Source of the DNA: Lineolata rhizophorae
Taxonomy: Eukaryota > Ascomycota > Dothideomycetes > Lineolatales > Lineolataceae
Direction: 5' to 3'
DNA: 64,000 nt
NCBI GenBank assembly: GCA_010093515.1
Contig: MU001678.1
Span: 1,030,806-1,094,805 of the forward strand
In this document: in pieces, positions 6,413 to 53,778 of the stretch
Layout: every line of letters begins with the position of its first letter
How positions within the stretch are numbered: position 1 is the first letter of the stretch
The notes under the pieces: model-generated
Seen by the model: only the letters and a program-made list of their open reading frames with translations
Told to the model about the DNA's origin: nothing
Databases searched by the model: none
Translations under genes and position numbers: made by a program

Positions 6413-9400
6413 TCACCACGCCCCACGCCCACCTCTCCCCCTCCCCCCCGCCACCGTCTCAAACCTAACTCCACGCCCACACCTCTCGACCCCACCACCC
6501 CCCAACCAACCCCCCAAGTTGCGACACTGGCTGACGTCGAGGCGCTCGAGGCGGGCGCAGCCGGCGAGCACGGCCTCGACGCCGTCGCCCGTGACCCGGA
6601 CGCAGCCGCGCACCGACAGCTCGCGCAGCTCGAGCAGGTGCAGCCCGACCGACCGCAGCGACTCGGCCCCGACGGCCGAGCCGCAGAAGGCCAGGTTGAG
6701 CCGCCGCAGCGACGGGCAGCCGAGCGCGAGCACCTCGGTCGCCGTGTCGGACAGCGCGCAGCAGAAGGACTGCAGGGGCGAGGGCTCACGTTAGCGGGCG
6801 CTGCGTTGGAACGGCGGGCAAACCAAAAAAAAAAAAAATAAAAATAAAAATAAAAATAAAAATAAAAATAAAAAAATAAAAAAATAAAAATAGAAGTAAA
6901 AATTAAAAAAACCATGGGTGGGAGGGAGGAGGGGAGGAAGGGGAGGGAGGGGGCCAGAACGAAAGCGCCGACTCACCAAGTCCAAGTCCCTCAGCCCCTT
7001 GGCGGCGTTGGTCAGGGCCACGATGGCCTTGTCCGTCAGATAGGTGCAGTCGGCCAGGCAGAGCCGGCGCAGGCGGGGGAAGGCGTGCACGCTCCAGTGC
7101 TGGAAGCCGCCGTCGCTGATGGTCGTGCAGCGCGTCAGGTCCATCTCCTCGATGCGCGCCGCCGCGTGCAGCGCGATGTGCGCCATCGACTTGTCCGTGA
7201 TGTGCTTGCAGTACGAGAGGGTGAGGCGGCGGAGCCGGGGGCAGCCGATGACGGTGCCGGCCGGGATCGCCTGCTGAGGTGGCTGCTGGTGCTGGTGCTG
7301 ATGCTGGTGCTGGTGCTGGTGCTGGTGCTGGCCGTTGCGCAGCCTGGACCCTCCGCCTTTCTGCTGCATTTGCTGCATGTGCTGCATTTGCTGCTGCTGC
7401 TGCTGCTGCATCTGCAGCACGTGGGGCGGGATCTCCGGCACGACCCAGCCGACGATGCGGGCGAGCAGGTTGTCGCCCACCTTGCGGCAGTTGCTGAGGT
7501 CCACCTCCTCGAGGTCCCGCGCGCGGCCCACCATGTCGAGCACGGCCTGGCCCGTGATGTCCCAGACGGACTTCATGCGCCAGGCCCGGCACTGGCGGGA
7601 GCAGGCGGCCGCGAGGGCCGCGAACCCTTCGTCCGTGAGGTGGAAGCAGTTGCTGATGTCGACGGAGCGGGGCCTCCCCGCCACGAACGGACAGACGTAC
7701 CGCGTCACCACCGCGTCCGTCACCTTGCGGTTGTACGGCGACAGGTCAAGGTGCTGGGCCAGCGCCGGCGACGTCGACAGGAGCTTCAGCCAGTGCGTCG
7801 ACACGCGCCGCAGCCGCATCAGCTCCACCACGTCCAGGTGCGACAGCAGCCGCACCAGGACCGCGTCCGGCAGCACGCCCTTGCCCTGCCGCGACGGCAG
7901 CCGCCGGCCCGCCACCTTGGGCCGCTTCACCGCCGTCGCCGCCTGCGCAGGCGGCGACGGCGGCGTCGACTCGTGCTTGGCGCGCAGCGACGACGGCACC
8001 AGGACCTGCCCGTTTTGCGGCGACTGCGACCGCTCGTTCTCGCGGCCGCCCGGCGCCGCGGCGGCCGCGCCCTGCGAGCCGTCCGCCGGCGACGAGCCTG
8101 GGGCCGGCGGCGCGAGCGACCCGCGCCGCGACCGCGAGCGCATGTTGTCCAGGTCGACGTTGAGGAAAGGGTCCGGGTCGTAAGGTTCGATGACGGGCAC
8201 GGGCGAAGCGTCCTCGATCTTCTTGACCGGCGCGCTCGCCACGGGGCCTTCCTCCGAAGAGCTCTCCATCGGGGTGAATATCACCTCGGGCATCGTCTGC
8301 CTGCGGCCGATCGGCGCTCCCGACGTGGCGAAAGGAGACCTGACGGCCCCGTCCGCAATCGCGAGCTCGTTAATCGGCGGAGTGCCGTCTTGGGCCGCCG
8401 CTGCCGTCGCCGCAGCCGCGGCAGAAGCTGCAGCAGCAGCTGCTGCTGCCGTCGCCGTCCCGCCCGGCGCGTCCCCCATCGTGACGTCCTTGGAGCCGTC
8501 GGCGGCCGACTCGACGAGGCGCCGGCGCGCCGTGCTCTCGACCTGCTGGCGCACGTCGGGCGAGCACTTCTCCCACAGCTCGTTGAGCACGTCGCTGTCG
8601 ATCATGAGGCACTCGACCGACGAAATGGAGCGGACCGTGGCGGTGCGCTTCGGCGCCAGCGACAGGCTCGTGACCTCGCCGAAGTACTGGCCGGGCTTCA
8701 GCCGGGCGATGATCTCGTGCCGCGGCTGGACCCCGTGGCCGGCGAAGAGCGTGTCCACCTTGAACAGGCTCAGGTTCTGCCGCTCCGTGATGACCTCAAC
8801 CTCGCCCCGGACGATGAAGAAGACGTCCCGGCCCGGCGAGCCTTGCTGGATGATCTCGGTGAAGGGCGGGTAGGTCCGCGGCTGGGCGTTCAGCCCCAGG
8901 AAGTGCAGTATCTCCGGGGGCAGGCTGGAAAACAGCGGGAGCTCCTTGAGCAGCTGGCGCACGGTGACGGAGCCCCCGGTGCCGATGGCGCTGACGGCGG
9001 CCACCTCGGCCAAACCGGGGCTCGGAGACTTCCTCTTCTTGTTGCTGACGACCTCGCCGTCCCTCAGCGCTCCCGCATCTCCCATGACCACGTCGCCGTC
9101 CATCCGATCCCTCGTCCTCTTCCCGGACCTGACAAGCTTGCTCGACGCGCCGCTCGCCGACGAGCCGGGCCCCATCTCCTTCTTCTTGCGCTCCAGGATG
9201 GTCAGCCGCTCCTTGGCCTCGTCGCGGATCACCTTCTCGACCTCGGGGAAGTGCGGCAGCTCCTTGGCCAGGTCCTCCTTGTTGAGGCGCACGACCAAGG
9301 AGCGCAGGTTGGCGATGATGGTGGCGGTGCGCGGGATCTCCATGAGGACGCCGATCTCGCCGAAGAAAGCGCCGGGCTTCAGTTCCGCGTAGGTGCTCTC

Positions 9401-9715
9401 GCCGTCGCGGCTCGTGACGCGGACGGAGCCCCGCACCAGCCAGTACATCGCTTTGGCGTCGTCGCCCTCGGTGAGGATGTAGTCGTGGGGCGCGTACAGC
9501 TGCAGGCGGAGGTGCGTCCCGATGGCGGCGAGGAAGCTGTCCGGTGCCGACTGGAAGAGCGGGAAGGAGCGGAGCCGGTCAAGTAGGTCGAGCGGGAGGC
9601 CCTGGATGGTCGACGCCGTCAAGGGCGACGGCCGCACCGGGCGCGTCGGGTTCGTTTCGGAGTCGTACGCCCGGATTAACGACATGGGATCCGGCACGGG
9701 CATCACCGCGCCGCT

Positions 9716-9762
<47 letters not shown>

Positions 9763-9925
9763 TGCTGCCACTAATACCGCCTCCGCCTGCGCTATTGCTG
9801 CTGCCACCGCCCGAGCTGCTGCCGTTCATCATCATCCTGCTGCTGCTGCTGCCGCTGCCGCCGCCGCCGCCGCCGCCGTGATGGTGGACGGCGGGGCCCC
9901 CGCCTGGCCTCGAGCGGCGACGCAT
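6413..9925 (-). CDS. F-box / leucine-rich-repeat protein with two cyclic-nucleotide-binding domains
   Basis: Exons (minus) 6977-9925 and 6413-6769 give 1101 residues. Order: poly-Gly/Ser N-terminus (1-75), cNMP-binding domain 1 (about 121-230, FFGEIGVLMEIPRTATI), domain 2 (about 310-430, YFGEV then KRTATV), a disordered Ala/Ser/Pro linker, an F-box (about 684-725), then AMN1/GRR1-type leucine-rich repeats to the end, interrupted by poly-Gln and an (HQ)n run near 866-880. The FGE...RTA phosphate-binding-cassette residues that hold cyclic nucleotide are kept in both domains. Known F-box/LRR proteins recruit substrates to SCF ubiquitin ligases; coupling to a cyclic nucleotide is inference. The ATG at 9925 is used; an upstream GTG frame extension is ignored. 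The 207-bp intron carries a TAAAAA-type repeat. Confidence 0.88.
6825..6910. repeat. (TAAAAA)n microsatellite inside the F-box gene intron
   Basis: About 85 bp of A-runs broken by single T's at roughly 6-bp spacing (poly-T/A on the coding strand), lying between the donor at 6976 and acceptor at 6770. It lengthens an otherwise short intron. Confidence 0.85.
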
Positions 9926-10787
9926 AATGACGGCGCACACGCCGCCCCAGGGGGGAGGAGGGTGCCAGATAGATGCCCCGCCGAACCGGGGGGGTTTCCG
10001 GGCTTTTCAGGCCTGAAGCGGGATCCTTCTTGTCACCCGACGCGTAAGGAGTTGAGAATTCTTCTTTTCCTCTTTTGCGACGGCGAAGAGGGCGGACGTC
10101 GGCCGGTGCGCCGGGATTACCAGGGTAAAGTTGGAATGCTGGGGGGGGAGGGTTCGGGTCGAGGCCGTTGGCCCGTGTGTGTGTGCGGGCTCTATCGTGG
10201 TACCTGCGGCGGCGAACAGAGCTCGCGGAGACGCTCGTCCCGTCTGCGCGTCCGTTCCAGCCCGCGCGCGCGCGCACACACACAGACACACTCACTCAAC
10301 CCGGCGCGCAACGCGACGCAACGCGACGCACGTACGCACGCACACGCACACACACACACACGAGGACGCTCGGCGCAACGTACGCGCACTCGCACACAGC
10401 TCGGCTGCTCGGCTCCGGGCTCAGCCGGCGTCGGAAGGGGCCCGGGCAAGAAGGAGGAAGGGGGGGGAAGTGAGAGCAAGAGCGAGAGCGAGAGCGAGAG
10501 AGCGCGACACGGAGGGAGGCCCAGCTGGAGGATCCGGAAACGAGGAAGAAGGGCGGGGGGAGAGCGGGAGGGCCGGCTACAGGCTCGCAACCATGCTCTT
10601 CCCCGGCACGGGTCGAGGCGGGATCGAGGCAGGCGGCGGGAGAGCCGTCGCGCGAAGGGAGAGACGGAGACGGGGACGGAGGGTGGTGGTGGTGGCGGCG
10701 GATGACGCCGGGGCGCGGACGAGGACGCGGACGCGGGGTACTAGCGACTCGATGATGCCGCGGGGCGCGCGCTTGCGAGAAGCGGTC

Positions 10788-21636: not shown

Positions 21637-23923
21637 ATTGACACGTAGTTTCGACTCCGTTATGGCTTTGAGGTTGAGTTGTACTGAAGGCCACGTGAAC
21701 CGGAGCCGGTCTATTAAAGGTTAGAGAGGTTTAGATAGAAAAGTGTTGCCAAGCGCCAAGCCCGAAAAACCTTCTGCTGGAGGGTGTGGTGTAGCCGTTG
21801 ACGGTGGTTAGGAAAGGAAAAAGCAAGATTAAGTAGGCAGGGCGTGATGATGCCGACGGCGTGGCCGGGCGGCGCGCGCTAGGTAGATAACTGAAAAGCT
21901 TGACGTCGAAAACTGCCGGATTAGGTAGCGGATGTGCTCGGTATCTGCGCGGTTAAGACTGACGGGCCTGGACCTCGGGCGTGCAGCCTGAGAGCAAAAA
22001 TGCGAGAGTTGCCCGATGTCTCCAGTCTGAATATAAAAAGAAGGGTCTGCGTGAAACATTCGAGTTGAGGTGGTCTCCGCCCAGATTTTTACTTCAGTTA
22101 TTGCCAACAAGCCACCACAGGAAAGCAAGCCCGGCGAAGGTTTTTATATCGCCTTTGGATGGAGCTCACTTCGCGAGCAGGCCTAATAGATAAGCAACAA
22201 ACGAAAAGCGCCGCCTGCGCTCGGGCAACCTCTGGTCCTCGTCAGCAAATCAGAAATTGCAAGGGCAATTGCGCCTGCAGAGCGCCGACAACGGAGCAGT
22301 CTAAGCTGGTAGGCAAACCTATTAAATAAATCACTTAGTGGCATAAGCCCTCGCGGTTGTCCATCCTCTTGCGCCTCTCCTGGTCCAGTCAAAAGCTACT
22401 TCCTGCAGATACCAACACCTCGTCCATAGACTTGATCCTATCCCAGCCGCTCGGCAAAAGTACCTCCCAAGGTCGCCCTCAGTCGGTGATACCGCTAAAA
22501 GGCCCTCGCAGCCTTGAGCGCAGAAAACAACGAGCCGGACCCAGGCAGGAAACGCGACGCTTTACCCCACCGAGCAACCGGAGATAGGCCGGAGTGATAA
22601 GGCCGGATCAGTGTCGGCGCAGAGCAACCACGTAGAGGTGCCTGTGCGGCCCAAACACCATTCGACGCCTGCAGCAGAGTGTTGGGAACGGGCCACCGTC
22701 TAATGGCAGACCTCGCATTGGGCGCAACTGGAGGCAACAAGGTACTCGCCGGCCCCATCTTGGACTGCTGGGCTCCGGGCTCCTGGGCGACTCCTCCCTG
22801 GCCGTTGGAGTCGGCCCTCGGCTGAACCGTGGAGGAAAGTTCGGCAGCCCTTCGGTCGTTAGATGCGCGCAACGCCGCCCGCCCCACGGCTCTTGGGCCG
22901 CAGCTTCGCCCGGCTTCCAACGGTTTTGCCGTGGCCCCGCTGCTGCTGCCGCCCCACCGAGGGGCACAGCGCTCCACCATGCACCCCCCGCCACCAACCG
23001 CAGCCCCTCCCTCACCCGTCAGCGCCTATCAGCCAGCCTCCTGAAGGTCACTGTCCCGCCAAGGCGGCACCGCGACGAGGAGAAAAGGGCCTGACCAACT
23101 AGTAAGTTAAGCTCTGTCGGTGAGAGGAACAGCTTCGGCTCTTACACATTTCGACGCGCTACCGACTTAGCAAGCGCTCGAAGCCAAGACCCCGAGGCCC
23201 AGAAAGCTCATCTAGCTCTGCAGCGGCGCCATGGGTCGCACTGCATCTGCACGTTGGCATGTGCCTGGGCCGTTTAGTCGGGTTTCTCTCCGCTCCCCGA
23301 CGAGCGAGATCTACACGCCGGAGTGGAGCTTGCTCTCCCTGCGAAGGAGTGCCGTTCGTCAAGGTATCAATCGGGGGGTCGTTGATTACCCCGCTGGAGG
23401 TAGGCTGTCAATTGCCTCGATGCAGACATAGGTTTCCGGAGGCAACCATCCCTGAGGCTGCCATTGAGACATGCATCCACCAGATCATTCGCACGTGGCT
23501 AAAGACTGTAAAGTGGGTCTTTCCTAGGTGCCTCGATGCGTCGTAGCTTCGGATGGCGTCGAGTGGACTAAGATCACACACGCATATTTTCGCTCGGGCG
23601 CCCCCAACTTGAATTCCCCGAGGGGAGAAGCACCGATCCATTTTAGCCGAGATGCCCGTCCACACTTTCCTTCGGGGCAGCAATTGTAGCGACAGAAACT
23701 TGCGCTAGGCAGAGGTGATGATGGTGCTAAGAATGGGAGAAGAACATGAACCTTCTTTAACTGTCACAACAGTGCCAGTTGGGTGTAGAGGAAAGAGAAG
23801 AAAGAGAAAACAGTATCATTACTCCGTAGAGAACTCTCAGTGCACCGATAATTGCAGACTTGGCTCCACTTTTGCCCAAAACCCAAGCATACCACACACA
23901 ATGACTATCCATTAAACTAGTCA
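21637..23923. other. long intergenic region
   Basis: About 2.3 kb between two minus-strand genes. Open frames (for example 22495-23102 on either strand) are short, overlap antisense and show no domain. I saw no tRNA, repeat array or transposon ends. Confidence 0.5.
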
Positions 23924-26900
23924 TTAATCTCGCAAAATCGCCTCCATGAGCGTCTCACGGGAGACAGTGGCAAACCGCTCGACCTAAATGCCAAAATCAG
24001 GGCTGAGTACTTCGTAAAGACATAAGAAACATTAGAATCATGAACTTACATATTTGGCGATTTCCGCATCCGCTGTGGCTCTATCGGTCCAAAATTTCAG
24101 TGTGGCCATCTCGTCCACGGCATCATCTGTCTAATCACTAGTCAGTACAATGCAAATCCTGTTTTGGCTGACTGATTCGTTACCTCGGGGCTCATAAGGA
24201 GACCATAAACATGCTGCAAGACATCGTAGATGTGAACTGAATCGCTCCAGTTCTTTGCGGCAAAGACTGCATGGCAAATTTTGCCGTGCTAGATCAAATC
24301 ACGGATCAGCTTTGTATTCATCTTTTCCGAGAAGGCACAAATTAGAAATAACTATTGTGGGTTCTCACCTTTGTGATATTTGGGTGCAGAATCGGCGTGA
24401 TAAAGCGCACGACTGGTGGCGTTCGCGGATACGATCGGGTTATCTGGACGGAGAGCACAAACGTACCGTTCGCATACGGCGTTGTCTCCGGGCCAACCAT
24501 GACGACTTTCCAGAAGGACATATCTGCCTCATTGACATATATATCGATATCCGCATGCGGATGGTCCGCCATCAGCTGGATTTCTTCTAGAAATACTCGA
24601 CTGGAAGATACTCCACCAAGTTCTCGATGGCGAGCTCGTACAGCGTCGGGGTCAGGCTTTATGAAAGTCGCCGACTTAGAATTTGAAAGCCGTTCTTGCT
24701 TGATCGGTGATATAAGCTCTTTCTCAGTGGATCGAGATGACGAAAGCGATGGAGTCTCTTGCTTGATGGGTTGGGATTTCAGACGTTTGCGGAAGAAAGT
24801 GACGGCGTCTCGGAGACAGACAAATCTTCCACTCTCAAGATTGTTTATGCGAGTAGGCGGAAAGTCGTACATTGACTTCATGTCTGGTTGCTTGGGTTGC
24901 GATTCCTCCCAGTCCTCGATTGGGATGTTAATGACATCCGGGCGCATAGGGAGATCTAAAAATGGTTCCAACAAGAAGGTCTGGAACAGCAGCAGTCGAG
25001 AGGTCGGGCAGAAGGCGTAACCCCCTGTATGCTTGGATATTTTAAATAGCTCCCTTGATAAACCTCGACTCCGATCATTGGGGCTTTGTAGCGCGATCGA
25101 ATCTACCACAACTCCATTATCCATTAATGTCCGACACACTGACTCCGGTCCGACTACGGATACGTTGTCCCAGCCATCAGTCAAGGCAATTATGCGGAGC
25201 TTGGAATTAGGATAACTTGTCTTGAAGTCGGATAACATGTCGGCTCCTAGCATAAGTCCGTCCCAGAGCGCCGTTCCTGCTTCAAGCTCGACGTCCTTGA
25301 GTCGTTGCTGAAAGTTTTTGAAATGCTCACCCACTCCCTTTAATTCTGCCGTAATCTTTGTTTTCCTGCCAAACGTGACTAGCCCTATGTGCTTTGTTGT
25401 TGTGAGGTTGAACCCAACAGTGCGGGCAACAAAATTTTCAAACACGTGTTTGGCTTCGTCGATTTTGCGCAGTGTATTGTGCTCGCCGATCCACTTGTCT
25501 CCCACGGAGTGGCTCATGCTTGAACTAACGTCGAAGCAGATAACAATGGCTTCTTGCGGGTCGTGCGTGACTTTGTCGGGCTCGAACGAGCTCTCCCAAT
25601 CGTCGACTGCCCAAATTCCTTGGGTTCGCCGCTCTTCAATGATCGGTTGAAGAGCTTGCAAGAGTCTATCTCCCGATCCTTCATCGAATGTTTCCTTGCC
25701 GCTCAGCGGGTTCCAGATAGAGAAAGTGCAGTCTTCCATGTTAACCTTCTGATTCGTGTCGTAAAGGGAAACGAGTCCTTCTCTCGAAAGTGTGAGGGAT
25801 CCAGAACGCGCATTTCCCAGTTCATTCGGGCCAACTATACGGAATCGACTATTGAAATTTGCCTCGGCGATGAGTCGTCCAAAGTCGGCCATTGGAGGAT
25901 GAGGTGTGCGAGGGTGTTGGAGCAGTGAAAAGGAGGTGTCTCTAGTGTCAACATAATAGTTGCACAGAACCTCATAATGCCCCCAAGCTGACATTGCAAG
26001 GATTCGGAGGTTTTCCTTGCACTCTCCTGCCACTGAAACTTCAATTTTGCGCTGTGAAGCTGGGCCGGCTCTAGATGCCGAAACTGAAGGATTGCCTGCC
26101 GCGACGAAGCAAACGACCTCTCGTCGCATGCCATCCGCATTGTCATTTCGCTGCTCGTCGGAATCATGGTCAACCTCTGCAAATTGTACATCTCGCACCA
26201 AAGGAGGTTCGTTGTCGTCATAGGCCGGCATTGCTCTAAGGCTCGAGTCGAGCCAGGCGAAGATCTGTCTTGATGCCTCAAGCGCACACGTCTTGGAACG
26301 GCCAATGTATCGCATAGGAGTCATGCGCAGGGCTAATTCCCGAAAGCATGCCGCAAGAATGGCAACAGGCCAAGCCTCGAGCTTCTTACTTTCTACTATT
26401 TTATGCAAGGCTTCCAAGGCAGGAGGGAAGTGCGTAACGTCCAGAAGAAGGCGCAGGAATTGAGCTTCGAGGTAGCGGCTCTCAGAAAGGCAGTAGAGAG
26501 CCTTCTTGAGGCAGGAGATGAAAGTGCATGCGCCCTTGTTGGAGCACTTGAACCCCCATAGTCCGTTTCCGCGATGTTCATTGTCAGTAATATTCATCGG
26601 CACGACAAATACATTCAGCGGATTATTCAGGCTCCCGGTGCAACCCATGTCCGCGAGTGTGCTTGATTTGTTCGTTGTTCTCAGGGCACAGGCAGGTAGG
26701 AAAAGCTCGACACGGTAGCTATCCACATCCGGGGTTTCGTTTCGGTTATCTCTATGGTAGACGCGGAATTTCGCTATTTCTTGAAAATCGGCGATGGACG
26801 TAGAGTGCCTAATCGGACTGTCGTCTGCGGGAATCTTGACCAGAGACAGCTTGTCGAGCGCAAGGGCCGGAGTGATCCAACGAACGTGGATGAAGTTGCT

Positions 26901-27107
26901 GTGACGTGCATCCGAAGGGAGGGCATTCTGACCGACAGCAACCACATCATCATCCTCGAGGCTAGTGGCATGTTTTATTCGCTGTGAGACAAACACAACA
27001 TCATCATCATCATCATCAGCGGTGGCCAGCCGGGTGCTACGGCGTGTACGCCGAGCGCTCCTTTCGGATGTCGAGCCATCATTGCCCAGCAGCCTCTTCC
27101 GTGGCAT
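23924..27107 (-). CDS. VWA domain fused to an E2 ubiquitin-conjugating domain
   Basis: Exons (minus) 24369-27107, 24184-24288, 24050-24130 and 23924-23983 give 994 residues. Residues 1-70 are basic then acidic and disordered; about 71-290 is an unrecognised globular region with several Cys. A von Willebrand A domain spans about 518-720 with a complete MIDAS: DVSSS (Asp526, Ser528, Ser530), Thr612 in GTALWDG and Asp644 in LTDGWD. A linker (about 765-825) holds three psi-K-x-E/D motifs (IKQE at Lys782, IKQE at Lys803, IKPD at Lys817). The C-terminal E2 fold (about 832-985) has HPN at 908-910 and the expected catalytic Cys in HGKIC (Cys918), then NWSDSVHIYDVLQHVYGLL. The Cys lies just after intron 1. 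It looks catalytically competent. Substrate and modifier are unknown. Confidence 0.87.
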
Positions 27108-27845
27108 GTTTGTAGGCTAGGGAAGTCGCGTGGCAAGCCTGTCAACTTGGAAGGGAACAATTCGTAGTGGCCGAGATGAAGCACTCGAGGTGGGAATGTA
27201 GTGGTGAAGTGTAAGGAGCAGACGAAAGATAGAAGAAGTGATGGGGAGACGGACAGGAAATAACACTGTGGACGGATGCCTGACGTGCGTACCCGACGTG
27301 CGAGCCGACCAGTCGTTACTTCTCGGCCTAGGGAAAGCAGGTGCCGGAGCACAAGAGGGCTGCGTGTTACTGAGGCGGGAAAGAAGGTGGAAGTCTGTAG
27401 AAATGGTGGTAAGTAAATGCCTACACGGCACTGCTATTTGACGGGCTGAAGAGAGCGTAGTAATCTGTGTGTCTAGCCGAGATGTAAACAAAAGACTACA
27501 CAGTGAATTTCAGTGTTTCGCTACCTGACCCGTTAAAATCACTTGCATCAGCATTCACCCAAAAGCGGCCGAAAAGTCGACGCACATATCTGAGCTACAC
27601 TTGAAACAACTTCCTGTCTTGCCCAAGCGAGGTCTAACAAGGTCCAATCATAGCACGTACCTACATATTTAGACAAAGGGATATAAAAACCGGCATAATA
27701 CATTCAACCAAACGCCAGTATCCCCTACTGTATCCCAAAAAGTATCTCTAAGAAATCCCGATTCTGACAAAGCCAGATGAAACCCTATAAGCAAACACGT
27801 AAAACTATATCTACGTGACATCCTGAAAATACCTGATGCTAAGTG
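27108..27845. other. intergenic region (VWA-E2 promoter, GH76 3' end)
   Basis: No gene supported. The left 500 bp is probably promoter and leader of the VWA-E2 gene; the right is AT-rich 3' flank of the GH76 gene. Confidence 0.55.
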
Positions 27846-29732
27846 TTACTTCTCACCACCATACATCTTCACGAGTTCCCACATAGCCCTCAGCACCGAA
27901 ACGCCACCACCTTGCGTCTCTACGGTACGCCCTCTCCCGCGATCGTTTGCATCCCTGTTGCCGGACTCGGCTTCAGCATGCGCCTGCGATGAGGCAGCCC
28001 AGGTCCTTCGCCGCCACTCCGGCGTGGATGGCACCCTCCCATGGCGGAAGCCGCTCCACTTCCAATCCAGCAGCGCTGATGCATTATTCCTATAGTCAAC
28101 GGCGCCATCCGGGAGCGGCGGCGCCTCAAAACCCCGCCTGTCCCCGTCGAGATGCCCCTTACCCGCCGGCCACCCCCACCACATGCCGAACTCGCCGCGT
28201 TCGTTGCGCGTCTTCATGGCCGCGCGCGCGTTGAACGCGACCCAGGGCGCATACTCCTTGCAGCTCTGGGCGTGCAGGCTGGCCTCGACGGGCGTGGCCG
28301 CGTACGTCCGGCCCGGCACAAGCGGGCGGCGGGGCAGCGGCGCGCAGAAGAGCGTCAGGTGGTGGAAGAAGATGCCCTTGAATGTCTGCCCGTTCTGCGT
28401 GCACGTCCCCGCCGCGTCACACATCTCCTCGAGGATGCCGCCGCGGCCGAGCCCCGCCCAACGGCCCGTCCCGTTGTTGCTTCCCGCGGACCCGGACGAG
28501 TCCGGCTTTGGCTTCCAGCCTGTCGCGTTGATGACGTTGCGTACGAGCGTGTGGCCGTCTTCGAGGTAGCTCCGGTCGTCGGTGGACTCCCAGAGGCCAC
28601 GCAGGCCGGATAGGAGCACACCTTGGTTGTACGTGTAGACCATCTCGTTGCGCTCGTCACACTTGCCCGTGCCGATGCTCCCGTTATGGCTCCATCCATG
28701 AATGTGGAATCCGTCAACATATAGGCCCCGCTCGTTCGTCATGTTGCTGTCTTTCAGCCATGCGTATCCATCGATAGCGGCGCGCAGGTATTTCGGGTCG
28801 TGGGGCTTCGCGACTGGGATCCCGGCCGCGCCTGCGTCGGCGGAACTCCCTGCGTCTGAGCCGGCAACAAAAGGGGATGGGTTGCGGTCGCCTGGAAAGT
28901 AAAGATACATCTCAATGGAGGCGGATATAAACAGTTCGTTCGTAATAGCATTCTTGTACGGCCTGAGGTGTGGGTTCCAAGTCATCCCTCCGCCGCAGAG
29001 TTTCGTGTCCCAACCCTTCGCAGCTAGGTCGTAGAAGACGTGCGCGCGGTGCGCAAATGCGCTCATGAACTGCACGCCGTACCACTCTCCGGACGCGCCC
29101 CTGCGACTTGCCGGATAGTGCTTCGCCGTGTGCAAGTCGATGAACCGGACACTCTGCAGCCACCCAAGCACCACCCAGAGCATGTCATCGTGCGCCTGCG
29201 TGCGAATCGCGAAATCGTTCTCCCCAAAGTAGTACGATATGACCTGCGAGAAGTACTTGTTGATCTCGTTTTCCACGCGCTGGCCTTCGACCGGCAGTTC
29301 GGCCCCTTCCAACGTCGGCAGGATGTATTCGAGCGAGTTCGTCAGCGTATACAGCGCCGCGTCGACATAGGTACCCAGTACCGCGCCTGTCCAGTCGATC
29401 GAATTCGGCCACGTCCCCAGCCAGAGTTCGAAGAAGTGCGTCTGCATTGTCTCGAGCGCGTAGTGGAGTTCTTCAAGAGGATTGATAGGCGGTGAGCCAG
29501 CAGGGGGATGTCTCTGCGCATCGAAACGGATGACGTCGTGTAGGGAATCGTCGACGTCGCCTCCCATGCTAGACAAAGGATCAATTGTTGAAGGGTGCTC
29601 ATTTGAAAGTCCTGCTGCATCCAGTGCATTCTCCCACATCAGCCGAGGCGCATCGTCGTCATCTAACTTCCACCCCTCCGCTCTCCAATGCAAGCAAAGC
29701 AGCAAAACGAAGATCGCAATCCAGTGCGACAT
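27846..29732 (-). CDS. secreted glycoside hydrolase family 76 (alpha-1,6-mannanase-like)
   Basis: Single exon of 628 residues. A signal peptide is visible at the chosen start (MSHWIAIFVLLLCLHWRAEG); in-frame ATGs at 29756 and 29831 would only extend ahead of it. The GH76 catalytic pair of Asp lies in TQAHDDMLWVVLGWL (Asp182, Asp183). Other family blocks are FAHRAHVFYDLAAKGWDTKLCGGGM cut into its parts FAHRAHVFYDLA and GWDTKLCGGGMTWNP, KNAITNELFISASI, YTYNQGVLLSGLRGL and GIFFHHLTLFCAPLP. Fungal members of this type (related to Dfg5/Dcw1) act on alpha-1,6-mannan, in cell-wall assembly or degradation. The C-terminus has no clear GPI signal, so a soluble secreted form is more likely than a wall-anchored one. 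No introns, unlike most neighbours. Confidence 0.88.
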   Translation of the reverse strand: MSHWIAIFVLLLCLHWRAEGWKLDDDDAPRLMWENALDAAGLSNEHPSTIDPLSSMGGDVDDSLHDVIRFDAQRHPPAGSPPINPLEELHYALETMQTHFFELWLGTWPNSIDWTGAVLGTYVDAALYTLTNSLEYILPTLEGAELPVEGQRVENEINKYFSQVISYYFGENDFAIRTQAHDDMLWVVLGWLQSVRFIDLHTAKHYPASRRGASGEWYGVQFMSAFAHRAHVFYDLAAKGWDTKLCGGGMTWNPHLRPYKNAITNELFISASIEMYLYFPGDRNPSPFVAGSDAGSSADAGAAGIPVAKPHDPKYLRAAIDGYAWLKDSNMTNERGLYVDGFHIHGWSHNGSIGTGKCDERNEMVYTYNQGVLLSGLRGLWESTDDRSYLEDGHTLVRNVINATGWKPKPDSSGSAGSNNGTGRWAGLGRGGILEEMCDAAGTCTQNGQTFKGIFFHHLTLFCAPLPRRPLVPGRTYAATPVEASLHAQSCKEYAPWVAFNARAAMKTRNERGEFGMWWGWPAGKGHLDGDRRGFEAPPLPDGAVDYRNNASALLDWKWSGFRHGRVPSTPEWRRRTWAASSQAHAEAESGNRDANDRGRGRTVETQGGGVSVLRAMWELVKMYGGEK

Positions 29733-30281
29733 GGTAGGATATCGAGCCGGAGTCATCGCAGTCGTCCGGTGTCGTCTGGCGCGAACCCAGAGGGTGGTGA
29801 GCGAATGATTCAGGCTGGGCTTCGAGATCATGGGGAAGAGAAGTACGCGCAATCTATGCGGCAGGAACGAAAGACATTGCAGATATCGCGCCGGCGGCAG
29901 CGCCCAGCAGCAGTGGGAGAGGCAGCCCGCCGGCTCAGCCTAGTAGGTTATGGTTCGTAAAGCGGCCAAACGGGTGATGCACGCAAGAGGTTGTAATGGC
30001 TGGAAGGTCGGACTGGATGTGGACCTCGTGCCCCTGCAGGATGCGACTAGAGTAGTCTTGGCGCTCCTTTGCCGTCCTGTTGGCAAACTTCAGGCCACTT
30101 CTTGATGCGGGGTCTGCGTGCTCGACTAGGGTGTGTCCGGTGTTTGCCACGTGCTCACCCTATTGATGGAAGTTTAAAGCGAAAGTTGGAGCCAAAGAAA
30201 ACAAGAAAAAAAAAAATCTGGAGGCAAGCGTTGACAGGAGCCTCAGATGACTTCGGTGAGCTAAAAAATCAAAAAGTATGT
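29733..30281. other. intergenic region
   Basis: Promoter of the GH76 gene and downstream flank of the tRNA gene. No further gene seen. Confidence 0.55.
30263..30275 (-). terminator. RNA polymerase III terminator of tRNA-Leu
   Basis: On the minus strand, runs of five (30271-30275) and six T's (30263-30268) follow the tRNA 3' end within about 20 nt, as expected for Pol III termination. Confidence 0.75.
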
Positions 30282-48414: not shown

Positions 48415-51400
48415 TCACCTCCTCCCACCAAACTGCGCCCTCGCCGCCGCAGCCGTCTGCCTCTCACGCATATCCGTCATAGCCAACGACGTCGGCGTCG
48501 GCAGTGGCAGCGGCACGGGCTGCGGTGCCGGCGTCGCCGCGCGGCTCGGCACCGCGCTCCTATTGTGGCTCATGTGTGCCTTGACGAGGTGTCCTGCGGC
48601 GTGGGCCGCGCAGAGGGAGAGCTCACCGGCGAGGACGGCAGCGGCGACGATGCGGGCGAGCTGGCGGGCGTTGTCGCCGGGATCGGTTGGGTGGGCGCCG
48701 CGCACTCCGAGCATGTCGAGCATGGCGCCCTGGGGCTCGAGGATGGTGCCGCCACCGATGGTGCCGACCTCGATCGAGGGCATGCTGACCGAGATTTGGA
48801 GGTTGCCGTTGAGGCTGTGGGGGAAGGCGACTGTTAGGTACCGGAGGGGATTTTTCTTGGTAGGGGCACAAAAGGAACAGAAACTCACTTCTTCATCACC
48901 GTGATGCAATTGCTACTCTCTACGTTCTGCGCCGGATCCTGCCCCGTCGCCAGGAAAATCGCCGTCACCATGTTCGCCGCGTGCGCGTTGAAACCACCTA
49001 TGCTGCCCGCCATGGCGCTGCCAATGAGGTTCTTGCTCGTGTTCAGCTCGACCAGCGCGTCCACGTTGCTCTTGAGCACGTTGCGCACCACATCGGCGGG
49101 GATCGTCGCCTCGGCCACCACGCTCTTGCCGCGCCCGTCGATCCAGTTGATAGCAGCGGGTTTCTTGTCCGTGCAAAAGTTGCCCGATACCGAAATGATC
49201 GCCATGTCCTCGAAGCCCGCCTCGGTGGCCATGACGTTGAGCGCGTGCTCGACGCCCTTCGAAATCATGTTCATGCCCATTGCGTCGCCCGTCGTGGTCT
49301 TGAATCGGACGTACAAGTACGTGCCCGCCATGGACGTCTTCATGCTCTGCAGCCGCGCGAACCGCGACGTCGAGTTGAATGCGTCGCGCATGGTACGCTG
49401 CCCTTCGTCCGAGTCTAGCCACAGCTTTGCCGCGCCCGCGCGAGCCAGCGTCTCGAAACCCACGCACGGCCCGCGCGTCATGCCGTCGCCCGTCACCACC
49501 GTCACGGCCCCGCCACCCGCGTTGATGGCCTTGCAGCCGCGGCTCGTGCTCGCGACGAGGACGCCTTCTGTCGTGGCCATAGGAAGAAAGTAATTCTGGC
49601 CGTCGATCATGAGAGGTCCGGCGACGCCGAGCGGGAGCGGCATGTAGCCGACCACATTCTCGCAGCAGGCGCCGTAGACGCGATCGTAGTCGAAGTGCTC
49701 GTATGGCAGCATTGACTTTTCAAGCAGGCTGGACGTCTCGCGGGTAGCATGAGTGCGCGCCACCACAGCCCGTCGGATCTTAACCGCGCGCGTCTTGTCC
49801 TCTAGAGTCTTTTCAAGAGCATATCCGGGAATCTTCCCTCGCAAACACATCTCAATCAATTCCTCGTCATTAAGTAGAGGCGCCCTTTTAGCCTTGATAA
49901 TAGCCTCGCATTCCGCCGGAGAACGCTTCGACTTCTTGTCCACAGGGCTCGTCGGGCTTTTCATGACTAGTCCCTCGTCCGAATCATCGCTCTCGTGTCG
50001 TACGATGGATGGGATTTTCGGGGCAATAGTGCCATTCTTAGGCGGCTCGGCCTCTCTGGGAATATCATTTTTTGATGGAGGTTCTCCTTCTAGCACCTCG
50101 CTCTCGGTCGGGGGCTGCATATGAGGATGGTGCTCCTTAATCGACCAGCGAGCCGCATTGAACAAGTATCCGTTGAGCGCCACACTCATCGCGAGGGCAA
50201 CAACTATCCACTTGCTCAGCACCGGATCTTCCAAGCTCTTTAGAATGCTGTCCACGACACGGCCGCCCATGCCATCCAGCAGAGGATCGCCGTACTCGGT
50301 TTCAAACGCGGACTTGGAAGAGCCCCGCGGTTCGGCATAGTGAACGGACGGATACTCGAGCTCGTACTTGATCGGAGTCAAGACCGTCACCAAGGTTGAC
50401 TGCTGTTGATTTTGTGCGCTCTTAAGGACCTCGTCGAGGCCGTTGCCGGCGACTTTGAATGGGTCCATAGGCGGCTGCGTGACGACGCTCGAGAGGCCGG
50501 ACATGGCAGGAGCGGTGCTGCTCCTCGATCCCCTAAATGGCAGCGTGCAAAGGTTAAGCACGTTGATAACGATAAAACCGGTGACCATCAGGACCTTGAA
50601 CTTTGGCACGCTGGAATCCCTGATCTTCTGGCCGAAGACTCCGTATTCTACAGACTGTCCTTCGTTGCCGCTGTCGGAGCCTCCCGAAGGGTCAAGCTTC
50701 GGCCAGTCGTTGCTAGCAGCTACGTTCTCGGCTACAACCCTGCTAACGCCATCATCCTCGAGAGCTTTCCGCAGAGCAACGTGCCGCTTAATTCGATTAA
50801 TCTCTAGCTTGATGGTTAGGATTGCGGTGTAGAAAGTGAAGAGCAAAACGCAATCAAAAAACAAAATCCACGCGGCCAAGAAGCAGAACTGCTTGAGGCC
50901 ACCTTGGACACCCGAGGACGCGCCCGCGATGAGAATGAGAATCTCAATGGCGTAGTCCCGGACGATCTCGTAACCTCGCTCCTTCATTGCAACTTGGATT
51001 GCGTGCTGGATAGGCAAGGGAGTATGGGACTTCTTGCTCCCTTTTTCGCTGCTCTCGCCGTTCTGCTGATTCGTCGTCCGCCTCATGTCCAGGTTGGCGG
51101 AGAGCACGGCCTTGGTAAGGACAATTGGCTTCTCGAAGCCAATGGTGACGACCAAAAATGGCAGACCCTCGGAGAGGAGAACCATGTTAAGCGGAACTCC
51201 AAGCTTCGTCGTGACTGTCAGGCCGAAGAGGAACGCAAACACGGACTCGAATAGAACCGTGGCCGCCAGCCAGAAGTTCGAGCCCAACCGGCGCATCGAA
51301 AGGAACAGAGAAAGGAACGTTAGGTGCATGGATAGGTATCCAAGTGTCATTATGATTATGTCCAAGGTTTCTGCGTTCTATCGACGTGATGTCAGCCCCA

Positions 51401-52296
51401 ATGTTGACCCACAAGTTTCCAAGTTCTCGCCGACGTACCTTCAACAAATCCACAAAAGCTGTCCAAGCATTAACCGCCCACTTCTTCAACCCACCCGACC
51501 CCGGCCCTTTCACCGCCTTCATAATCCACTTTTTCTCCTCATATGGCGCCCTCCCCTCATCATCGTCCTCGTCCGTGACCCTTGCTTCGGCCGCCTCAGG
51601 CGGCAGCGGAATCTCGTGTAGCGCGGCCAGCAGCTCCGGCGCCTCCGCAAACGGTATCGAAAACGCTAGCGTGGTATCGTGCGCCATCTGGGAGATTGGG
51701 TTCGTCGAGCAGGGTAGCAGCTCGGCCGACGAGTTTCGCGGCAGCGGCACGCCGTGCGGGAGCGGCGCCGTCCGCGCCGAACCCGCCGACGCCGTGTCCG
51801 GGAAGACGAGCGTCAGCAGCGCGAGGTGGCTCTGGGAGGCGTCGTCATCGTCGTCGTCGCCGCCGCCGCTGCCGCCGCCGCCGGCGGCCGCGGGGCCCGA
51901 CGCCGCTGTCGCCATCGTCGCCGGGGCACTCGCGTCCTCCTCGATCTGCCACTTCCAGCCCGTCTCGGGGCCCGCCCTTAGGGACTTGCTGCCGGCGAGC
52001 AAGGCGGCGAAGTCGGCGGCGCCCAGCGGGACGGAGGCGGCGGAGGCGTCGTCGGCACCCGACTCGAACAGGTTGCTCTCGAGCAGGCCGAGGTACGTGG
52101 TGCTGGCGAGCAGGGCGACGAAGAGAATCGTCTGGACCGGGTGCGTGCAGGCCTGGCGCGACACCGACTGCAGCAGCGGCGTAATGTGGCGGTTGCACCA
52201 GCTGCGGGGGGCCGCGCTGCCGTTGCCGCTGCCGTTGCCGTCGCCGTCCTCGGCCGCCGGCCGGAACCGCGACGGGAGGAACTGTGCGCCGATCAT
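48415..52296 (-). CDS. HMG1: 3-hydroxy-3-methylglutaryl-CoA reductase
   Basis: Exons (minus) 51439-52296, 48889-51377 and 48415-48814 give 1248 residues. The enzyme makes mevalonate from HMG-CoA with NADPH in the ER membrane, the committed step to sterols and isoprenoids. Order: cytosolic N-terminus, a first transmembrane span, a long lumenal loop with poly-Gly/poly-Asp, the sterol-sensing-domain span cluster ([20 protein letters not shown] onward), a linker, and the catalytic domain. Catalytic features: [49 protein letters not shown], and the C-terminal His1196 in GHLVKAH followed by HNRS (Ser1202), the AMPK-type regulatory site. The two introns leave N and [10 protein letters not shown] in phase. 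An approximately 45-residue Pro/Ala tail follows HNRS. Confidence 0.96.
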
Positions 52297-53778
52297 TGTG
52301 GGCGGTGGTCGTTTTTGTGGAATGCTGTGTGCTTCGTGCTTGGAAATGTACTCGGTGCCTACTGTTGACGCGCGCAGGCTCGCGCACAGCGAAAGTAGCC
52401 GGAAGATAAAAAAAAAATAAATTATTTCTTAGGATCGGATGCAGATAGTAGCACTAGGTCTAGGTTGGTGGGAATTCAATTGCGATCGGGTGATCTTTTT
52501 CGCAACTGGTCGTCGAGCTCGTGGCGGGTTCCGAAACTTGGAGTTGGGGAGATGGTTTGCGCCTCGGGTGAAACTCGAGCAGGCAACTGTTGCTCGCGCA
52601 ACCTGCCCCCGTGCGCGGGCAGTAGGACGTATCGGGGTGTGCGTGACGGCCGGCCAGGGCGAAAAGGAGGTGGGGGGTCTTGATTATTATTTTTGGGGGG
52701 GGCGCGGGTGTCGCTGACGATGTGAGCTGCGCGCACCTGGGAGGCGCAGCTCTCAAGCGTGACCACGGAGACCGGGGGAGCAGCAGCAGCGCGGTGCCTG
52801 GGGCAACATTTGCCCGCCGGGTCACTGGAGGCCGGCGCAACGGAGGAGGCGAAGGGGCAACGGCGACGAGGAGGGAAAAGGAGCGCGGAGAAGAAGAAGA
52901 AGGAGAGGAAGAAAAAGACGGAGCCCGTAGATCAAGGAAACGAGCCCGTGTCGCCGCTCCTTGTTGGCCCGAAAGCAGCCAAGGCCTTACCCTGGACGGA
53001 CTGACGCGCCCGCTTACCGTGCGCCACAGCCCGGCCTGATTGGGCGCGGCCTCACCGCCCTCAGGAACCCGCGCAAAGGGATCTGGGGTTCGCCCCACGC
53101 TCGACCCGCGCCGTTGCCCAACGCCTTCGAGTCGCGCATGAGAACAATTGCGGCCACCTCAATTGTCGTCGCCGCATTGTCCTTCCCGCGAGCGCCCCAC
53201 GTGCTCGCGCGCCCGACGTGCGTGCGACGGCCGTGTTCAGCTTCGCCCGTCTGCTCAATCACTTCGTCGCTGCAGGGTGATGGACGCCGCCCGGGCCCGC
53301 TGACGACACCGCTCAACCAATCAGCCACACCACGCCTGTGTCGCCACATCCCATGACATCTGCCCATCGGGACATCTTGTAGCCCAACACGCTTGCGTTG
53401 GACGGCCCTTTTATCGTTCATCGAAGACGTTTCACCGCGTGATTGGATGTTGCGTGTGCTGATGTGCCACGTTTTCGAGGATACGGAGGGTGTCAGTACC
53501 TGCGGTATCTTACCAGGAGTCTGATATAGATTCAAAGTGAAAATATTCGCCCGGTTGGGATGGGCCGGAGTTGTTTTGCACGAGCATGAATAAGCCCCTG
53601 GGAGAAAGAGTGAAGACAGTCAATGGAAAGGACGAATGAGTGAAGCCGGATTTAGTCTATGGATTTGAACCGTTTCTTCTACTTTGGTCTACATGGACTA
53701 GTGCAGGACTAGTACAGGATTTAGTGCACATAAAAGATTCGTAAACACTGTTGCCGCACCCGATTTTAAGCACCGCTT
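52297..53778. other. intergenic region, HMG-CoA reductase promoter
   Basis: About 1.5 kb. GC-rich leader-like sequence with a purine tract (about 52860-52925) and CCAAT-type patches; no gene recognised. No sterol-regulatory element could be named with confidence by eye. Confidence 0.55.

Follow-up and report, generated by a model that had tools for sequence, protein, structure and literature searches.

Introduction

Few ubiquitin-conjugating enzymes (E2s) carry a substrate-binding part of their own; multidomain examples are UBE2O, BIRC6 and the fungal PARP-E2 proteins. UBE2O and BIRC6 are placed among the class IV E2s (PMC5095918), and UBE2O is described as an E2 that is independent of ubiquitin ligases (E3s) and whose other domains tune its ubiquitin-conjugating (UBC) domain (PMC12835413). 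The PARP-UBCc proteins (PARP Clade 6A) are reported to form an exclusively fungal clade (PMC2964712). Among proteins with a von Willebrand A (VWA) domain, VWA-Vint proteins occur in several fungi and other eukaryotes, and four of them have an upstream U-box (PMC2362128), in agreement with the initial annotation of the DNA studied here, which had pointed to fungal VWA proteins fused to U-box or Hint-type domains. Here, we describe a gene of the ascomycete Lineolata rhizophorae, the predicted product of which joins a VWA domain to a C-terminal E2. The window, a stretch of 64,000 nucleotides, is contig MU001678.1, 1,030,806-1,094,805. In the assembly searched, which has 48 contigs and 30,968,845 bases, it lies inside contig C9. 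A class II hydrophobin (Hydrophobin_2) matches at one place on C17, in two rows, and together with a PARP-UBCc protein this fits a fungus, probably a filamentous ascomycete; neither the MAT alpha family nor its control matched anywhere. Positions without a contig name are those of the window. No description of a VWA-E2 fusion stands among the listed titles, abstracts and passages of an open-licence library that omits most subscription papers, and the available parts of PMC4327156, PMC12881547, PMC8146833 and PMC5891612 contain none; a domain-architecture database could well list the combination in other fungi.

A predicted gene joining VWA and E2 domains

The gene consists of four exons on the minus strand and encodes 994 amino acids. 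Its three introns all have GT..AG borders and are placed between codons (phase 0). The features that carry the argument are as follows.

27107, minus strand: start codon ATG, with A at -3
24369..27107, minus strand: exon 1, 913 codons; N-terminal tail, conserved N-terminal regions, VWA domain, linker and first half of the E2 through HPN-ITK
24184..24288, minus strand: exon 2, 35 codons; catalytic Cys918 inside
24050..24130, minus strand: exon 3, 27 codons; Asp951 inside (aligned with D117 of UBE2D)
23924..23983, minus strand: exon 4, 19 codons and the TAA stop
24948..25547, minus strand: VWA domain, residues 521-720
25518..25532, minus strand: DVSSS of the metal ion-dependent adhesion site (MIDAS), residues 526-530
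25272..25274, minus strand: MIDAS Thr612
25176..25178, minus strand: MIDAS Asp644
24050..24608, minus strand: E2 (UQ_con) domain, residues 834-975, interrupted by the introns 24368-24289 and 24183-24131
24378..24386, minus strand: HPN motif, residues 908-910
24274..24276, minus strand: catalytic Cys918, 8 residues past HPN
24122..24124, minus strand: Asp951, acidic residue of the alpha3-alpha4 loop; in the alignment it takes the place of the acidic residue by which E2s orient the acceptor lysine

Both domains score above the Pfam cut-off of 27 bits, VWA_2 at residues 521-645 (E=1.6e-7, 32.3 bits) and UQ_con at residues 841-972 (E=5.9e-31, 107.4 bits). The only other Pfam match of the whole protein at E<=1 is Pox_RNA_pol_35 (E=0.26), below its cut-off; at the same threshold there is no match to Vint, Vwaint, RING, U-box, BIR or the SH3-B domains of UBE2O. 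The initial annotation had proposed a single protein with a VWA domain and a C-terminal E2, and its coordinates, residue numbers and domains agree with this model. Every site residue that it named (DVSSS, T612, D644, HPN and Cys918) is indeed in place.

It is very improbable that the fusion is an artefact, with neighbouring genes merged or an open frame arisen by chance. Such an error is conceivable in an exon model the borders of which were read from sequence alone. Against it, the VWA domain and the first half of the E2, through HPN-ITK, are encoded in one stop-free exon, and therefore no intron is needed to link the two domains. The frame of exon 1 spans 924 codons from stop to stop, far beyond the longest found in 200 single-base shuffles of 23901-27200 (251 codons; mean 128), and a second copy in the genome is arranged alike.

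A second copy with the same architecture

A search of the genome with the protein of exon 1 gave eight rows, namely the gene itself, two rows on contig C1 and five E2-domain rows of at most 37.8 bits. The C1 rows reach 348 bits with 34% identity over residues 70-776 and 78 bits with 47% over residues 829-913. They belong to a second copy, C1:962226-958352, modelled in five exons (962226-961582, 961510-959000, 958950-958849, 958793-958713 and 958657-958352) with a product of 1,214 amino acids, the start codon of which is uncertain. Its domains follow the same order as in the window gene, and its last three introns (phase 0) interrupt the E2 region at identical codons, after HPN(I/V)TK, after M(S/T)(P/F)E and after (K/Q)Y. 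The second copy agrees with the window gene at all 11 residues followed (D526, S528, S530, T612, D644, R837, H908, P909, N910, C918 and D951) and differs from it at D950. A recurrent architecture with a conserved Cys had been set beforehand as a check on the prediction, and the one other copy compared has both.

The overall identity of the two copies is 36%. By segment, it is 28% (71-172), 36% (183-300), 32% (301-520), 40% in the VWA domain, 46% (721-770), 16% in the linker and 48% in the E2, which is the best-kept segment. The proportion of nonsynonymous differences (pN) is below that of synonymous differences (pS) in all nine segments, with 0.35 vs 0.81 in the E2, the lowest pN, and 0.42 vs 0.82 in the VWA domain; pS is near saturation throughout. 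Since domain order, introns and site residues are common to both copies, the VWA-E2 fusion is, judged from this comparison, older than an old gene duplication, and both halves have been kept since.

This conservation also bears on the idea that the E2 domain does not conjugate at all, being kept as a binding module for ubiquitin, an E1 or an E2 partner while the VWA domain does the work. Inactive E2-like domains exist, and the same genome encodes a PARP-UBCc protein, L032 (C8:837276-840944; PARP E=3.2e-10, UQ_con E=3.5e-8), in which HPN is not recognisable by eye and the Cys is kept in GALCM. In both VWA-E2 copies, however, HPN, Cys and Asp are intact, and it is the E2 that has diverged least, so that a non-conjugating role is unlikely.

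The VWA domain

The MIDAS (DxSxS...T...D) of the window gene is complete, made up of D526, S528, S530, T612 and D644. Pfam recognises the VWA domain of the second copy more strongly (VWA_2 E=5.7e-14, VWA E=1.7e-12). Against PDB sequences, a profile of the two VWA domains gave five rows at E<=0.1, all distant: a mussel thread matrix protein (1.8e-7), a chloride-channel protein (0.0019), two Ku80 entries (0.0085) and a hypothetical membrane-spanning protein (0.037). A scan of NCBIfam returned only VWA-containing bacterial families, far under their cut-offs. By these sequence matches the VWA domain of the fusion is of neither the Ssl1 nor the VIT type, both of which occur elsewhere in the genome.

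VWA_2 or VWA matches the genome at nine separate places (six rows in one search and five in another, with two places common to both), and UQ_con matches in the same open frame at two of the nine. The others include a VIT-VWA protein at C8:980117 and Ssl1 on C22 (Pfam). No E2 match is listed near the VWA places C3:1307053, C14:268707, C1:334918 and C14:794388, where an E2 on a separate exon could be missed. A third VWA-E2 candidate on C5 (VWA at 1066399; E2 at 1069386 and 1070283) was rejected on translation and looks like two adjacent genes. At this locus, L029 (C5:1066033-1070696), an Rpn10-like VWA gene is followed after about 3 kb by a UBE2Z-like gene, which has a second E2-like domain; both are named by eye and are probably chance neighbours.

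Outside the genome, relatives were sought in viral and prokaryotic contigs, a scope that carries no information on recurrence in fungi. No relative was confirmed in viral contigs among 100 pattern hits with the whole-protein alignment and 76 with the N-terminal alignment (two peptide patterns each), nor in bacterial or archaeal contigs among 64 pattern hits with the whole-protein alignment (one scan, two peptide patterns).

The E2 domain and its E3-facing loop

Among the best 60 of 309 PDB sequence matches of the E2, the top one is the ubiquitin E2 3e95 (E=1.2e-21), and UBE2A, UBE2N and UBE2D are also found. With a profile of the two E2 sequences, the best 60 of 239 matches all bear the name of a ubiquitin E2 or a UBC-domain protein; the ubiquitin/ISG15 E2 L6 is included, and no SUMO or NEDD8 E2 appears among them by name. 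H908, P909, N910, C918 and D951 stand, in both copies, in a domain that resembles the E2s of ubiquitin. The acidic residue with which Asp951 aligns orients the acceptor lysine in E2s (PMC5095918).

Where the two copies depart from other E2s of the genome is the second residue after the E2 Trp, which we take to sit in the 3-10-to-alpha2 loop. It is Asp929 (WSDS) in the window copy and Ser (WTSS) in the second copy. Across 22 distinct other E2 loci examined, this residue was readable at 15, and it is Pro at 13 and Ala at two. L031 is counted among the readable loci, L036 is the same place as L002, and seven loci were left out because an intron cuts the loop or the pattern missed it (L008, L029, L034, L039, L040, L044 and L045). 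L031 is itself a separate UBE2O-like gene (Pfam tSH3-B_UBE2O and SH3-B_UBE2O). In UBE2L3, hot spots for HECT E3s lie in the 3-10-to-alpha2 loop and at Phe63 in the beta2-beta3 loop, on the face turned to the E3 (PMC5095918). Because both copies are without Pro or Ala at this position, their docking on ordinary E3s may be altered.

A real possibility, to which we give tentative credence, is nevertheless that the protein is an ordinary E3-dependent E2, in which the VWA and N-terminal regions serve only to position the enzyme, for example at a nuclear complex, and the choice of substrate is left to a separate RING E3. Most E2s require an E3 (PMC12835413), extensions of E2s often set localisation or the choice of E3 (PMC5095918, PMC11354881), and the active site has the residues of a normal E2. 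What speaks against this account is the loop, since neither copy has the Pro or Ala present at all 15 readable loci. Likewise, the PxxPP loop has no Phe in either copy (R895 stands there in the window copy, Gln in the second copy), a weak point, as this Phe is also missing from several further E2s of the genome.

Proposed function

The architecture suggests an enzyme equipped with a part of its own for binding a substrate or a partner. We put a probability of roughly 0.5 on the reading that the protein is a multidomain UBE2O-like E2, in which the VWA domain and the regions at residues 71-520 would bind a substrate or partner, and ubiquitin would be transferred either directly or via an unusual E3. 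Such an arrangement can work, as UBE2O shows, which is described as acting independently of an E3 and with other domains tuning its UBC domain (PMC12835413). From the residues present, an E1 would charge Cys918 with ubiquitin, and Asn910 of HPN, together with Asp951, would support its transfer to lysine. The VWA metal site and the conserved regions would meanwhile hold the substrate or a partner complex, as the order of domains implies, and the variable linker would let the tethered E2~ubiquitin reach the bound substrate. Because a usual E3-docking loop is altered in both copies, direct transfer in the manner of UBE2O and BIRC6, or transfer by way of an unusual E3, would be more likely than transfer via an ordinary RING or HECT E3.

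Several points weigh against this proposal. Its support is drawn from sequence, and the comparison from one relative. The argument for a low dependence on the usual E3s, drawn from the altered loop, is circumstantial; loop residues vary among E3-using E2s, and an altered loop does not prove independence of E3s. Helix 1 of the E2 keeps just one of the usual basic E1-contact residues, R837. The score of the window-copy VWA domain is modest (32.3 bits vs a cut-off of 27), and the completeness of its MIDAS does not tell which ligand it would hold. Finally, the single-sequence structure models, with a mean predicted local distance difference test score (pLDDT) of 39.3 for residues 505-913 and 33.6 for residues 66-510, are both too poor for judging domain packing.

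With the MIDAS and the E2 site residues both intact, a duplicated VWA-E2 protein would add another way of building a substrate-binding E2. It would also be a system for asking how an E2 can dispense with an E3, and it supplies two unnamed conserved regions, residues 71-300 and 301-520, for solving.

N-terminal regions and linker

The remaining parts of the protein that align with the second copy are the following.

26208..26897, minus strand: residues 71-300, which the second copy shares; nothing above the Pfam cut-off
25548..26207, minus strand: residues 301-520, common to the second copy; no Pfam match
24798..24947, minus strand: strip following the VWA domain, residues 721-770, with PDMxSxxDFPPxR
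24609..24797, minus strand: variable linker, residues 771-833, its 16% identity counted over 37 aligned residues

The initial annotation had also noted an N-terminal region of unrecognised type at residues 71-290. Such a region exists; its extent was drawn too short, as conservation with the second copy spans about residues 71 to 520. None of six N-terminal fragments scored above a Pfam cut-off at E<=10; DUF6125 (E=0.067) and DUF7017 (E=0.1) matched one fragment each, weakly and far below cut-off, and four fragments had no match. When PDB sequences were searched with a profile of residues 70-531, nine rows came back, the best no better than E=0.078. The second copy (L017) has a different and longer N-terminus in place of residues 1-70, with an extra first exon (962226-961582), one stretch of which looks beta-grasp-like by eye and has no Pfam match. 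A ubiquitin-like reading by eye of this stretch and of residues 71-172 was dropped, unsupported by the Pfam and PDB-sequence profile searches.

Short motifs resembling those of the SUMO pathway

The tail of the window copy and its linker contain short motifs that recall the SUMO pathway.

26898..27107, minus strand: residues 1-70, with acidic tracts and a basic tail, PRKR..RRTRRSTR, that looks to the eye like a nuclear signal
26988..27008, minus strand: first motif resembling a SUMO-interacting motif (SIM), DDDVVFV, residues 34-40
26934..26954, minus strand: second SIM-like motif, DDDVVAV, residues 52-58, 18 residues from the first
24651-24767, minus strand: Psi-K-x-E/D motifs IKQE 781, IKQE 802 and IKPD 816, all three of the protein, inside the 63-residue linker

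SIMs have a core of Val, Ile or Leu and acidic flanks (PMC8161396). Two matches to this form in residues 1-70 were reached by none of 20,000 shuffles. A DNA pattern for D-D-D-V-V-x-V has five matches genome-wide, two of which are the SIM-like motifs, against one for the reversed control, counts that may run low. Three or more Psi-K-x-E/D motifs arise in 0.05% of linker shuffles; the count for the whole protein is ordinary, being reached by 27% of shuffles. SUMO-pathway genes seem to be present in the genome, with a UBC9-like E2 at L003 (by eye) and nine Rad60-SLD rows, a family that also catches ubiquitin.

From these motifs one may picture the window copy as a nuclear, SUMO-guided single-chain E2, the tandem SIMs of which catch sumoylated proteins while the VWA domain takes hold of either the target or a partner and the E2 passes ubiquitin on directly. 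One polypeptide would then do the work of a SUMO-targeted ubiquitin ligase and its E2; sumoylation of the linker could lock or release the E2 via the SIMs of the protein itself, and the second copy, which differs at its N-terminus and is without SIM-like motifs, would act on other targets. We regard this as doubtful. The motifs were picked with the sequence already in view, GAT triplet repeats underlie the Asp runs in the DNA, with the two sites 79% alike over 24 bases, and motifs of both kinds are confined to the window copy, the second copy having neither a SIM-like motif nor a Psi-K-x-E/D motif. If the link to SUMO were true, the RING-type SUMO-targeted ligases would have an E2-based counterpart in this protein.

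Other genes of the window

Immediately upstream of the VWA-E2 gene, on the same strand, lies a Glycosyl hydrolase family 76 gene (27846-29939, minus strand). An open frame at 6794-10006 (minus strand) holds cyclic-nucleotide-binding domains and an F-box, another unusual combination in the ubiquitin pathway. At 48888-51377 (minus strand), HMG-CoA reductase occurs with a sterol-sensing domain, and an overlapping frame at 51190-52428 (minus strand) has an HPIH domain; the two frames probably belong to a single gene that has an intron where they overlap.

Comparison with known systems

The VWA-E2 fusion is a further variant of the multidomain E2s. Like UBE2O and BIRC6, it is a large multidomain protein in which other domains precede a UBC domain placed toward the C-terminus; unlike them, it has no SH3-B or BIR match in Pfam and possesses a VWA partner instead. 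With the PARP-UBCc proteins it shares a fungal origin and another functional domain preceding a C-terminal E2 (PMC2964712), that domain being a PARP catalytic domain there and VWA here. The VWA-Vint proteins are similar in being probably intracellular VWA proteins, four of which have a ubiquitin-pathway domain joined to them (PMC2362128); their U-box is upstream and their Vwaint and Vint are downstream, whereas the fusion has its E2 downstream and no such Pfam match. The tandem, acid-flanked, Val-rich motifs of the fusion resemble SIMs in form (PMC8161396) and bring to mind SUMO-targeted ubiquitin ligases such as RNF4 and Slx5/Slx8, although these are RING E3s and not an E2, and the motifs of the fusion are predicted and found in the window copy only. 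Finally, bacterial vWA-MoxR systems with Ubl, E1 and E2 genes also bring VWA and E2 components together in one system (PMC7159879). There, they are separate genes of an operon, whereas in Lineolata rhizophorae they are parts of a single predicted eukaryotic protein.

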